The notes under the pieces are model-generated. The model was not told the origin of the DNA. It saw only the letters and a list, made by a program, of their open reading frames with translations, and searched no databases. Positions 5,911 through 47,890 of a stretch of DNA of 64,000 nucleotides are shown here, one piece after another. The DNA is taken from positions 62,001-126,000 of the forward strand of contig NZ_CP106855.1 of assembly GCF_002209355.2 (NCBI RefSeq), written 5' to 3'. How positions within the stretch are numbered: position 1 is the first letter of the stretch; every line of letters starts with the position of its first letter. The position numbers and the translations under genes are program-made. This DNA is from Bdellovibrio sp. SKB1291214 (GTDB lineage Bacteria; Bdellovibrionota; Bdellovibrionia; Bdellovibrionales; Bdellovibrionaceae).

Positions 5911-5942
5911 AAAAGGGAGTTCTAATCGAACTCCCTTTTTTT
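5911..5942 (+). terminator. Terminator of the E2-E3 operon
   Basis: AAGGGAGTTC pairs with GAACTCCCTT around a 5-base loop, followed by seven T residues, 25 bases after the lpdA stop. Confidence 0.9.
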
Positions 5943-5946
5943 ATGC

Positions 5947-6017
5947 GTATGTCCTTACTTGAAAAGGTAGGACCTTACTTCCGAGGTAAGGCCCTACCTT
6001 TTCAAGTAAGGACATAC
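5947..6017. repeat. Perfect 25-bp inverted repeat of the GTAAGGAC family
   Basis: Arms at 5947-5971 and 5993-6017 are perfectly complementary; the 21-base loop holds its own small stem (CCTTAC/GTAAGG). The arms carry GTCCTTACTT and AAGGTAGG, the same words found at 43748-43806 and 47793-47862. The right arm ends on the base before the stop codon of the minus-strand gene that follows. No ORF or T tail belongs to it; it looks like a dispersed REP-like intergenic element. Confidence 0.85.
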
Positions 6018-7127
6018 CTAAAAAAGATCGAGGGGATTTGAGGATTTTGGGACGGAGGATTTTTCTCGACCGATCATAAAATCTAAAGTCACATTCACTG
6101 TGGTTGAAGGTCGAAAATCATCTTCGTAGCGCCAAGCCAAAAGTGGCGATACCTCCAAGAAAATCCATTTTACTTTTTTAAAACCTGTTCTGTACGTGAA
6201 GCCTGTCGTGTATGAATCAGTGTACATCTGCAGCTTGATCGATCGCATATTGAATCTAAGATCGAAGGACAAAAGACTTTTATCATAGAAACTATAAATC
6301 CATGAAGGACCTTGAGTCGTGCTGAAAACAGACGGTTGGCTCATGTACCAATTTGCTTCGTTGATGAAACGTAAAAGGAAGTATTTGCTGTAAGCATAGT
6401 CCGATGCCAACGACACCTTGCTGTTCCAGTAAGACTCTGAATCCCAACCTAATTCGTCGGTTAAATGGTGTACGACCTTGCCCGTCAGATAGTTTCGACT
6501 GCCACGAAGTTTCGCGTAATAGGCTATCGGCCACTTCCAACGAATACCTGTCTCTGTAGCAAAGTTCCAAGGATTTTGCTCTTTGAATTCCTCGGGAGTA
6601 ATTAAATCTTCATCAAGCAAAACATCAGGTGGTTGATCGGGTCTGCGATTCCAAAAATCGTTAAAGTCTCTTTCGCGCTGTTTTAAGTTTGGCAAACTTA
6701 AAATCAAAGAAGTCGAAAAGGAATTGTCGTAGGTCCCATTTTTTCCATTATATAAAGAGCCGGTGGTCACCTTTAAGCTGCTCGCGTAATACTCGTCCAA
6801 AGCACGCGTATCCCCAAACAAACCATCGACCTTATTAGCAAGCAAGATCACGCGATCGGAAACCGCATTTCGAGAATCAGCAATCAGCTGGCCTGTAGCT
6901 CCGATGAGCCCCGTGTCTTGCTGTTTGTTTGTGGGCTTTTCTGGAGTTGGAACGGGGGCCGGAACTGGTACAAAAACAGGCTCAGTAACTGGCGTCGACT
7001 CCTCAATAGAGTGAGCCTCTTCGATACCTGGCATCTCCGGAAGCGGTTCCTCAGTTTGAGAAAACGCAGGATGTGATAGCAATGTTAGAGCAATAAGAAA
7101 TTTCAGCGACAACTTAACCTCTGACAC
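6018..7127 (-). CDS. Putative outer-membrane beta-barrel protein
   Basis: A 369-residue exported protein of unknown function. The signal peptide (LKFLIALTLLSHPAFSQ) is followed by a Pro/Glu/Val-rich spacer (about 25-70). The rest alternates aromatic and polar residues in short strands (for example SYWNSKVSLASDYAY, TTVNVTLDFMIG), typical of a membrane barrel. The listed start is GTG; a TTG fifteen bases inside (7112), preceded by AGAGG, gives a more normal signal peptide and may be the true start. No family recognised. Single gene, with a palindromic repeat touching its stop. Confidence 0.7.
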   Translation of the reverse strand: MSEVKLSLKFLIALTLLSHPAFSQTEEPLPEMPGIEEAHSIEESTPVTEPVFVPVPAPVPTPEKPTNKQQDTGLIGATGQLIADSRNAVSDRVILLANKVDGLFGDTRALDEYYASSLKVTTGSLYNGKNGTYDNSFSTSLILSLPNLKQRERDFNDFWNRRPDQPPDVLLDEDLITPEEFKEQNPWNFATETGIRWKWPIAYYAKLRGSRNYLTGKVVHHLTDELGWDSESYWNSKVSLASDYAYSKYFLLRFINEANWYMSQPSVFSTTQGPSWIYSFYDKSLLSFDLRFNMRSIKLQMYTDSYTTGFTYRTGFKKVKWIFLEVSPLLAWRYEDDFRPSTTVNVTLDFMIGREKSSVPKSSNPLDLF

Positions 7128-9099: not shown

Positions 9100-9480
9100 A
9101 TCCAACGAAAAAAGCTCTCCAGTCCGGAGAAAGCAAGTCCGTAACTTTAAGACTCCGCGTAGGCGACAGCATCTCCGCTGACTTCAACTCTTTCACACGT
9201 CTACTTACTAGAAACCCTTCGAGCTAATGGCGAGGGGCTTTGGGTACTTGCGATGCAGCGACCTCCGTGGGCGCCAGGATGGCGCGCACCCGCCAAAGGC
9301 GGGCCACGGTGAGCCTGGAAGGCGTGTCGCGGAACTCGCAAGTACCCAAAGCCCCTCGCCATTAGCGGCGCAAAAAAACTTCTAGCCTAAGCAAAAGTCC
9401 TGAACAGAAGTGAAGAAGCGTGAGCTTGGTTCCAATCTGGTGCTACCCTACAGTCCAGTCCCATTTTTCATGGAGGAAAA
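9100..9480. other. Intergenic region with a structured inverted-repeat element
   Basis: No gene is visible in these 381 bases. The first 120 bases hold a small stem (TCTCC/GGAGA near 9118) and nothing else I recognise. The centre is the long inverted repeat listed separately. The last 100 bases precede the protease gene; GGAGG at 9472 is its ribosome site. I see no convincing sigma-70 promoter. Confidence 0.6.
9224..9365. repeat. 142-bp element with perfect 30-bp inverted arms
   Basis: Arms 9224-9253 and 9336-9365 are perfectly complementary. The 82-base loop contains nested stems: GCGCC/GGCGC, CCCGCC/GGCGGG and an enclosing CCGTGG/CCACGG pair. The inner end of the right arm is GCGGAACTCG, also present in the element at 18818-18986. 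It could fold as one long branched RNA or cruciform. It has no T tail and no coding potential. Confidence 0.85.
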
Positions 9481-16881: not shown

Positions 16882-17454
16882 ATGAATAGATTTTTATCCA
16901 TATCCATTTTGATAGTGATGTCTTTGTTTTCTTTCTCTGCGTTAGCATGGAATGTCGAACTCGGTGCCCAATACGGACACAAGACACAAACCTACGATAC
17001 GAACAACTACAACGAATCGGAATCGATCACGGGTTCCATGTCATTATATATCTGGGAACGAATTGCTCTGGAATTAAGCTATACAGATGCGCAGTCCATC
17101 GTAGTTGCCAAAGCCTATGCTTCCGACCCAAAGCGTACGACAATTCAGAAATCACAGATTCTTGGTTCTGATTTAATCTTGATTCTCGCGGATAAAAAAG
17201 CGTTATTCCAGCCCTACGTCAAAGGCGGAATGGCACAAATCAGTCGTAAGCAGACCATCAAAATTGAAAACCAAGATACTTATGAAAATGAACCGGATAG
17301 CGCCATCGCTCCTTCATATGGTGTCGGTTTAAAAATCGTCCTGACAGAATCTATGGGTATTAAAATCAGTTACGACGCCTGGGAAACTCCCATCGGTGGA
17401 GGCTCTAAAACCAACGACTCTGCGATTCGGGCCGGCATAACGTGGATGCTATAA
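16882..17454 (+). CDS. Small outer-membrane beta-barrel protein
   Basis: A 190-residue exported protein with a clear signal peptide (LSISILIVMSLFSFSALA) and about eight strands of alternating residues, such as VELGAQYGHKTQ, YIWERIALELSYTDAQ and a terminal AIRAGITWML, the typical C-terminal aromatic/aliphatic barrel end. It resembles OmpW/OmpX-like 8-stranded proteins in length and pattern. AAAGGA lies ahead of the ATG. Its last 13 bases overlap the start of the next gene, so the two are co-translated. Function unknown. Confidence 0.8.
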   Translation: MNRFLSISILIVMSLFSFSALAWNVELGAQYGHKTQTYDTNNYNESESITGSMSLYIWERIALELSYTDAQSIVVAKAYASDPKRTTIQKSQILGSDLILILADKKALFQPYVKGGMAQISRKQTIKIENQDTYENEPDSAIAPSYGVGLKIVLTESMGIKISYDAWETPIGGGSKTNDSAIRAGITWML

Positions 17455-18569
17455 AGTATCTAGTTTTATTGTTTCCACTTTTAGCAGGTTGCCAAATTAA
17501 TTATTTGGCAAGCTCTGCCTACAACCAAATGAAACTCCTTAACTCTCGCATCCCCATCGAAGAAGCGTTGAAAGATCCAAAGATTCCCGATGCAGATAAA
17601 AAGAAATTAGAACTGGCACAAAAAGCCCGCGCCTTTGCTGAAAATGATCTGCATCTAAAACCTACACAAAACTACACGAGCTACGTAAAACTGGATCGTC
17701 CCTATGCAACCTATGTGGTGAGCGCTGCCTACAAATGGGAATTAAAACATTATCAGTGGTCTTATCCGATCTTAGGAAAAATGCCCTACAAAGGCTACTT
17801 CAACGAACAAGACGCCAAAGCTGAAGCGCAAGAAATGCAAAAAGAAGACTTAGACACTTACATGCGTGGAGTAACAGCGTACTCAACTCTGGGGTGGTTC
17901 AAGGATCCTTTGTTGAGTTCGATGTTAAGCTATAAAGACTATGATTTGGTAAACACCATCATCCACGAAACGGTGCATGCCACGCTTTACATCAAAGGTA
18001 ACGCTGACTTTAACGAATCGTTAGCCAGCTTCCTTGGCAACAAGGGAGCCGAACAGTATTACCTAAAAGAAGAGGGAGCAAACTCCCCCACTCTGGCGCA
18101 AATCAAAAAAGACAACGAAGATGACAAGATTTTTTCAAAGTTTATCAGCCAAGAATTAAAAGAGTTAGCAACGTGGTATAAAAACCTTCCAACCACAGAA
18201 CGTGTCGAAGAAAAAAGGATGGCCCGCATTCAGGCCATCCAGGAAAAATTTAAAAAAGAAGTGCTTCCAACAATGCACACCAAGAACTATGAAAAGTTCA
18301 CCAACGCCAAACTCAACAACGCCCGACTGTTAGTGTATAAAACCTATCTCCAAGACCTAGCCGACTTCGAAACCTTGTACCAACAAAGCGGCAAGAACTT
18401 CCAAATCTTCATCGAAAGATGCAAAGCTTTAGAGGGAGAAAAAGACCCCGCAAAAAAACTGAAGGAACTCATTGGCACGAAATCAGAAAATGAACTCAGC
18501 GCCAATAATCCATCAGCAGAAACCCAACAGGACCAAAAGAAAAAAGAATCCAAAATCCCAACGCACTAA
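17442..18569 (+). CDS. HEXXH lipoprotein, putative aminopeptidase (PF10023-like)
   Basis: A 375-residue predicted lipoprotein (lipobox LAGC, Cys17). The N-terminal part, with YNQMKLLNSRIPIEEAL, matches the 'putative aminopeptidase' family. A zinc-protease signature HETVH is at residues 175-179, followed by NESLASF, a plausible third ligand. The C-terminal 180 residues are highly charged and helical, ending in a Lys/Gln-rich tail. The GTG start lies 13 bases inside the preceding barrel-protein gene, so the two are coupled. Probably acts in the periplasm or at the outer membrane. The peptidase activity is family inference. Confidence 0.82.
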   Translation: MDAIKYLVLLFPLLAGCQINYLASSAYNQMKLLNSRIPIEEALKDPKIPDADKKKLELAQKARAFAENDLHLKPTQNYTSYVKLDRPYATYVVSAAYKWELKHYQWSYPILGKMPYKGYFNEQDAKAEAQEMQKEDLDTYMRGVTAYSTLGWFKDPLLSSMLSYKDYDLVNTIIHETVHATLYIKGNADFNESLASFLGNKGAEQYYLKEEGANSPTLAQIKKDNEDDKIFSKFISQELKELATWYKNLPTTERVEEKRMARIQAIQEKFKKEVLPTMHTKNYEKFTNAKLNNARLLVYKTYLQDLADFETLYQQSGKNFQIFIERCKALEGEKDPAKKLKELIGTKSENELSANNPSAETQQDQKKKESKIPTH

Positions 18570-18817
18570 CGCGAACCAGAAAGGGAGCTGTTACCATGGG
18601 GTTCAAGGCAGCATCGCCGCGAACCCATCGGGATCTCAAGCGACCGCAAATTCCCCCCAAAGACAATTCGACACCGAATAATTAGTCTAACTTCCCAAAA
18701 CCGCACCACGCGCACCGATGCGGAATCCAAGCCACCTCTTTCGAGTCACTCTCTATATATAGATCCAATTAAGCTTTTGATTTTTATATGCGATATAATC
18801 GATGTCATGACGAACGA

Positions 18818-18986
18818 GGCTTTGCGACGAGCTGTGGAGGGCTCCTCCGTCGAGTTCCGCAGGCCTTTGTAGTCAACACGCAGCAACTGCCCACCATCGA
18901 ACCCAGATCGATTTTAAAATCCCAAAACCAACAAGAGCGAGGACTGTCCGAGTAAGGAGGAGCCCTCCACAGCTCGTCGCAAAGCC
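18818..18986. repeat. 169-bp element with perfect 31-bp inverted arms
   Basis: Arms 18818-18848 and 18956-18986 are perfectly complementary around a 107-base loop. Read on the minus strand, the loop ends AAGGCCTGCGGAACTCG just before the arm; the element at 9224-9365 has AAGGCGTGTCGCGGAACTCG in the same place, and both outer arm ends share CGAGG-CTTTG. The arms themselves differ but each pair matches fully. No reading frame or T tail explains it. Confidence 0.85.
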
Positions 18987-19224: not shown

Positions 19225-19836
19225 ATGCAGAAAGATCTAATAGGGTTATCGGATCTTGAACTGGTTGAAAAAGTGAAGTCTGGAGACAGAAGATCTTTTT
19301 CCGAACTCGTGAAACGACATCAGAGAAGTGTACTGCGACTGAGTTTGAGATTCATGAAGGACACGGATGCCGCGGAGGATGTGACTCAAGAAGCTTTCAT
19401 CAAAGCTTACGAGAAACTAAATTCCTTTGAGGGTCGTGCTTCTTTCAAGAGCTGGTTATTTCAGATCGCGGTAAATACTGCACGCAACAAATTGCGCGAA
19501 TTCAAAAGAGACACTGTTGATTTTGAAGATGCGAATTTGGCAGTAGATGCGGAGGCTGAAAACACTCTCGTACACACGGCGGTTGCTGACATCCTTCAGA
19601 AAGAAGTAGAGAAGCTGCCGATGAAACAAAAGACAGCTTTGGTTCTGCGCGTGTATGAGGATCTTAGCTTTAATGAAATTGCTGATATTATGGAATGTCC
19701 ATATGACACAGCGAAGGCGAATTACCGCCATGCCTTATTGAAATTACGTCAGACTTTTGAGGAACAAGGTGACCTTAGAAGCTGGAGTGAAGAAGTTGGT
19801 GGCTTCTTCCAAACATACGCTGAAGCGGAAGGATAA
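19225..19836 (+). CDS. ECF RNA polymerase sigma factor
   Basis: A 203-residue group 4 sigma factor. Region 2 is clear (FSELVKRHQRSVLRLSLRFM, then DAAEDVTQEAFIKAYEKL) and so is region 4 (PMKQKTALVLRVYEDLSFNEIADIM, then YDTAKANYRHAL). It closely follows the RpoE pattern. A membrane protein that is a good anti-sigma candidate starts 7 bases after its stop, then a Spy/CpxP-like periplasmic protein, so this looks like an envelope-stress module. Unusually, the promoter in front is of the sigma-54 type. The ribosome site before the ATG is weak. Confidence 0.93.
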   Translation: MQKDLIGLSDLELVEKVKSGDRRSFSELVKRHQRSVLRLSLRFMKDTDAAEDVTQEAFIKAYEKLNSFEGRASFKSWLFQIAVNTARNKLREFKRDTVDFEDANLAVDAEAENTLVHTAVADILQKEVEKLPMKQKTALVLRVYEDLSFNEIADIMECPYDTAKANYRHALLKLRQTFEEQGDLRSWSEEVGGFFQTYAEAEG

Positions 19837-47792: not shown

Positions 47793-47862
47793 CGTCTTTG
47801 CCTAGCAGGTAAGGACGTACCTTTTTTCGCGTCTTTGCCTAGCAGGTAAGGACGTACCTTTT
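47793..47862. repeat. Tandem pair of 33-bp direct repeats
   Basis: Copies at 47793-47825 and 47830-47862 are identical over 33 bases (period 37) and contain CCTAGCAGGTAAGGACGTAC. This is the same GTAAGGAC/GTACC family as at 5947 and 43748. Two copies with a 4-base gap do not make a CRISPR array. Confidence 0.85.
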
Positions 47863-47890
47863 ATCGCAGGACCCCGACGTCTCATTTATT

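Follow-up and report, generated by a model that had tools for sequence, protein, structure and literature searches.

A dispersed hairpin family with a conserved two-strand inner module and locus-specific arms in Bdellovibrio and distant bacteria

The window, the 64,000-nucleotide stretch of DNA analysed here, belongs to a Bdellovibrio-type genome of 3.68 Mb (home genome, G000). An inverted repeat at 18818-18986 lies between a putative aminopeptidase gene (17442-18569, + strand) and an ECF sigma-factor gene (19225-19836, + strand). It has two perfect 31-bp arms, as a sequence-only reading of the same DNA had claimed, which are spaced by 107 nt, and its parts are collected in Table 1. The folding z scores relative to shuffled sequence were -8.8 and -9.0 for the two strands, and no dinucleotide shuffle of 18818-18986 folded as well. 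The repeat does not have the form of an intrinsic terminator because a T run is absent after either end. No -35 box was seen with the TATAAT that precedes the first arm, and the flank bearing this hexamer pairs weakly with the opposite flank. F1 is the name used here for the dispersed hairpin family to which this inverted repeat belongs.

Table 1. Parts of the inverted repeat in the window and a nearby promoter candidate.
Feature	Position	Strand	Remarks
TATAAT	18794-18799	+	promoter candidate only; 17-18 nt before the arm; also at two orthologous loci
Outer arm 1 (5' arm on + strand)	18818-18848		locus-specific sequence; perfect inverted repeat; orthologous loci L040 and L044 diverged yet complementary
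Conserved module strand B	18851-18862	-	CTGCGGAACTCG on - strand, CGAGTTCCGCAG on + strand; conserved across copies
Variable loop	18863-18934		A-rich on the + strand, read as the folded one (45% A, 12% T over 93 copies)
Conserved module strand A	18935-18952	-	CTCGGACAGTCCTCGCTC on - strand, GAGCGAGGACTGTCCGAG on + strand; conserved across copies
Outer arm 2 (3' arm on + strand)	18956-18986		perfect inverted repeat with arm 1

Searching the home genome for exact copies of GCGGAACTCG revealed more sites with long arms, and a covariance model (R1) was built from an alignment of 13 copies. The window copy, itself one of the 13 training sequences, scores 113.5 bits against R1 (E = 1e-26). An F1 element consists of an arm of 20-40 bp, strand A (YTCGGACAGTCCTCGCTC), a variable loop, strand B (CTGCGGAACTYG) and the second arm, and the window copy has both strands within its long complementary arms. 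The conserved part is the internal module formed by YTCGGACAGTCCTCGCTC and CTGCGGAACTYG; its minimal folded form is GCGAGTTCCGCAG ... GCGAGGACTGTCCGAGC, and it contains conserved unpaired positions. The reading proposed from these sequences is that the module is the recognised part and the arms would only be required to pair. One subfamily carries hairpins with T-run terminators inside the loop. Two loci in two species (L014, at G000:C1:3144006, and L320, at ahcY of G023) have in common an extra two-hairpin domain at the same insertion point in module strand A, with loops TCCT and ATCA and stems that differ and are still paired.

Within the genus, R1 detects 2-19 copies of F1 per genome in 23 of 24 genomes, with nine clear copies in the home genome; across the order, 33 of 141 genomes contain the family, spread over 10 of 66 genera. 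A search with the exact 17-mer of strand A located this module, again between long arms, in Coriobacteriia, in Thauera and in one Uhrbacteria contig. With one mismatch allowed, a Thauera sp. and Adlercreutzia caecimuris have about 40 matches each; strain B7 of the latter carries about 32 copies. The distribution in Coriobacteriia is patchy; 47 of 149 genomes have a match, mostly 1-3 and up to 32. The module is circularly permuted in Thauera, the Uhrbacteria contig and some Coriobacteriia, with strand B preceding strand A and the arms at the other end. Even where the strand order is permuted, F1 in distant bacteria keeps its inner module and again lies behind genes. Phages and plasmids gave no convincing match, just partial or weak coding matches, and the two exact matches in IMG/VR are both without strand B. 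One contig end in Coriobacteriia (L309, G172:C104:1-230) has a tandem array of three strand-A copies that repeats every 103 bp.

The suggestion that such elements form an undescribed family of structured elements is supported, and within Rfam and the open literature F1 is apparently undescribed. Rfam covariance models, permissive thresholds included, gave no match for the window, Bdellovibrionales, Coriobacteriia, Thauera or Uhrbacteria loci. Neither the F1 sequence strings nor a matching account of permuted or inverted-repeat elements was found in the open literature, a coverage that largely excludes subscription papers. Neither repeat finders nor Rfam can see an element whose arms differ from copy to copy. 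A short resemblance of the module (CAGUCC / CCUGCGG) to 6S RNA (RF00013), also a long hairpin, was considered and the assignment rejected, since the canonical 6S gene lies elsewhere in the genome and F1 has no Rfam match. That 6S RNA gene is at G000:C1:1481455-1481630 and scores 67 bits, above the Rfam cut-off.

Arm sequence is specific to each locus and pairing is kept. A total of 93 distinct elements was extracted, 85 of them with distinct arms, and among these 85 the mean identity of the 5' arms is 29%. The arms average 19.3 Watson-Crick pairs in 20 positions (97%) vs 9.2 after 3' arms were swapped between copies, which agrees with the earlier claim that arms vary while staying complementary. 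Extraction demanded at least 15 of 26 paired positions, and given this threshold the swapped-arm control is the fair comparison. The covariation score of the 13-copy alignment is 0.770 vs 0.169 for shuffled alignments, none of 500 shuffles reached it, and all 11 arm pairs tested vary on both sides. Orthologues of the window copy in the relatives G012 and G022 have the same flanks and arms that are diverged but complementary, with compensatory change between these loci. A check that had been proposed as potentially refuting was run; the arms of other copies are complementary, full-module sites are located at arm boundaries, and bare matches to the 10-mer are mostly chance occurrences in coding sequence.

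Residual mismatches were used to compare the two strands, with G.U and A.C both scored as mismatches. On the CUCGGACAG strand of Bdellovibrionales copies (helix positions 1-21) there are 6 GU and 22 AC; the corresponding GU/AC counts are 6/42 in Thauera and 21/64 and 2/12 in Coriobacteriia, all of which include related copies that are not independent, so events are fewer than counts. A small sample of terminator-like control stems from the same material has 8 GU and 0 AC. An excess of A.C over G.U on the CUCGGACAG strand means that G.U is favoured on the opposite strand, which is read as the strand that folds. The mismatches indicate that a single strand of F1 folds, which would be the + strand at the window.

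Most copies in Bdellovibrionales are placed behind genes. Of 85 copies, 42 plus 16 come shortly after the stop codon of a same-strand gene or the 3' end of a tRNA, and the stop-to-module distance is often 37-51 nt. The preceding genes include rpoN, ahcY, an mglA-like GTPase gene, lgt, pdxH, rplL and rpiB, and the preceding tRNA genes are tRNA-Leu (three anticodons), tRNA-Arg and tRNA-Met. By exception, the neighbours of the window copy are not sense-adjacent. Adjacent pairs of copies are nearly always in + then - order, as expected behind convergent genes. Orientation counts in Thauera and Coriobacteriia are blurred by the chance open frames that are common there.

A filled and an empty site were found at a VWA/lipoprotein junction, which has no F1 in G006 and has F1 in G002, G016 (kdesi strain) and G023. 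The filled site has both arms with AAG on each side, and the lipoprotein frame stays open through the element. This one pair suggests that F1 inserts with both arms and a 3-bp direct repeat, although the AAG repeat at a single site could be chance. An origin of the arms from the target had at first been favoured because arms extend into tRNA 3' ends; the lipoprotein site suggests that both arms arrived with the insertion. Copies also decay or are missing. ahcY of G000, G012 and G022 has an ordinary terminator without F1, and truncated copies follow ahcY of G002 and rpoN of G000. Behind one tRNA-Leu gene (L058), a complete copy precedes the remaining 3' half of an older one whose arms are different, an arrangement that suggests replacement or repeated insertion at one site.

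The favoured explanation, to which we assign a probability of roughly 0.4, is that F1 is a REPIN-like, inside-out, non-autonomous hairpin spread as a folded single strand by a putative trans-acting enzyme. The small internal module would be the recognised part, and the long arms would clamp it with any sequence provided that they pair. One strand (+ at the window) would fold and be under selection for folding, the folded single strand would be handled by the trans-acting enzyme, and copies would be tolerated mainly directly behind gene and tRNA 3' ends. We infer the single-strand intermediate, the enzyme and current mobility as the cause of the distribution. No mobilising enzyme for F1 was found, and other observations also weigh against mobility. 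The arms of orthologous copies still match each other once the copies have diverged, a pattern that points to a function at the locus, or to correction at the DNA level, and not to dead insertions. In addition, just one filled/empty pair defines a clean insertion. A mobile hairpin with a new mover and a transcript-level device at gene ends would both be new biology.

REPs and REPINs are dispersed hairpins found mainly downstream of coding regions in several phyla (PMC3116915, PMC3733652). REPIN spacers have free sequence with compensatory changes (PMC3116915). For CGTC REPs, which are also scattered behind genes, no dedicated transposase is known (PMC3733652). F1 is like both the GTAG and the CGTC superfamilies of REP/REPIN in being dispersed as hairpins behind genes in several phyla. 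REPs keep an outer stem and tag, whereas F1 keeps an inner two-strand module and leaves its outer arms free; accordingly, the stem conservation among copies that defines REP/REPINs is absent from F1, given the arm identity stated above. F1 arms are also longer (20-40 bp vs 5-13). REP/REPINs are linked to RAYTs, whereas the Y1 (RAYT/IS200-type) transposase, PF01797, has no match in the element-rich genomes G145, G147, G197 and G215, and mobilisation of F1 by this route is not supported. REP/REPINs have an unpaired GTAG or CGTC tag at one end; among the Bdellovibrio copies of F1, some have CGTC-like letters flanking the folded strand.

Other palindromic elements resemble F1 in part. Rickettsia palindromic elements, cited in PMC3733652, are palindromic insertions that can be in frame in coding sequence. 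The VWA/lipoprotein insertion is like these in its position, but most F1 copies are intergenic and behind genes. MITEs are likewise short, non-autonomous and multi-copy with inverted termini, but F1 copies have no terminal inverted repeats in common; the AAG at the filled site is a candidate for the target-site duplication of a MITE. Integron attC sites lie after gene ends, are active as a folded bottom strand, and have a variable stem sequence with conserved outer R and L boxes. F1 shares the position behind gene ends, the one folded strand and the variable stem. Unlike attC, its outer arms are not conserved and its copies are scattered rather than arrayed.

A directional RNA element is a possible but unlikely alternative to the mobile hairpin. 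The transcript of the folded strand would be stopped or destabilised by the hairpin and module; for a gene with F1 behind it, this would keep antisense transcription from invading its 3' end, and at 18818 it would separate the upstream open reading frame from the ECF sigma gene. Copies directly follow tRNA and housekeeping genes, and in most of those from Bdellovibrionales the folded strand is antisense to the gene. Where two neighbouring copies are inverted, they almost always have one and the same facing, and the G.U bias for the folded strand and the compensatory change at orthologous loci fit a transcript. However, many copies have a co-directional neighbour and hence no obvious convergent transcript, no T run follows the window hairpin, enrichment of promoters upstream of the folded strand was not found, and copies are lost or truncated in some species. 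A broader formulation, in our estimate similarly unlikely, is a functional hairpin class spanning at least three bacterial phyla and one candidate-phylum contig. A conserved cellular factor would recognise the circularly permutable two-strand motif, the arms would act as a sequence-free clamp, and the element would mark or protect gene 3' ends in antisense.

F1 copies could instead be stand-alone structured non-coding RNA genes with their own promoters, which we consider improbable. The TATAAT that closely precedes the arm of the window copy recurs in two other species, the loop is A-rich on the folded strand, and the optional two-hairpin domain has one fixed position at its two loci. Most copies have no promoter signal, though, one lies in frame within coding sequence, and the TATAAT itself sits in the weakly paired flank.

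Slightly more improbable still is a role on the sense strand, as a 3' UTR element or terminator for the upstream gene. Placement on the same strand a few nucleotides after stop codons and the subfamily with terminators in its loop are what such an element would show. The predominance of A.C over G.U on the sense strand in three groups is unlike terminator-like stems, and pairing in sense-strand RNA was rejected on this asymmetry. Several Adlercreutzia copies lie beyond a terminator-like hairpin, and termination within the loop would leave out the 3' arm. It is very improbable that arms are kept perfect solely by template-switch (quasi-palindrome) DNA correction without function. Near-absent mismatches and arms that match after diverging between species would fit, but such correction would not be expected to leave mismatches that differ between the strands in three groups, nor to conserve unpaired positions of the module.

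The window holds a second long inverted repeat with 31-bp arms (9223-9253 and 9336-9366). These arms differ from those at 18818, as had been noted, but the two elements had been proposed as one possible family, and the 9223 element sits in a separate, similarly built repeated family, F2. Kinship was rejected; R1 does not list the 9223 element, and the other conserved strand has 5 mismatches in 14 at its best match inside that element. F2, represented in the window by 9223-9366, has 16 matches in G000, 25 in G012 and 22 in G022, with a conserved, internally paired core and locus-specific perfect arms. The proposed common core, GCGGAACTCG, is present at both sites on opposite strands (+ at 9223, - at 18818). 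It is not common to the families, as the conserved F2 boundary is GGCGTGTCGC.GAA, and at 9223 the 10-mer is completed by a CTCG from the variable arm. Only 1 of 21 F2 copies examined has GCGGAACTCG at the boundary, and the word linking the two elements is therefore a coincidence. The supposed shared outer end, CGAGG/CTTTG, lies in or beside the variable arms; it is partly kept, as CGAGGC, in the two orthologues of the 18818 copy and not in other copies.

Among G000, G012, G022 and relatives, genomes with more Y1 (RAYT-type) transposase genes appear to have more F2 matches. F1 numbers do not follow this pattern, and a link between F2 and RAYTs is possible. Another hairpin with AGGTAAGGACGTACCTTTT-like repeats occurs in the window at 5939-6025, 5970-6006 and 47793-47866, the last with two in tandem. 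Similar strings, AGCAGGTACCTTTT, are found downstream of other genes in relatives.
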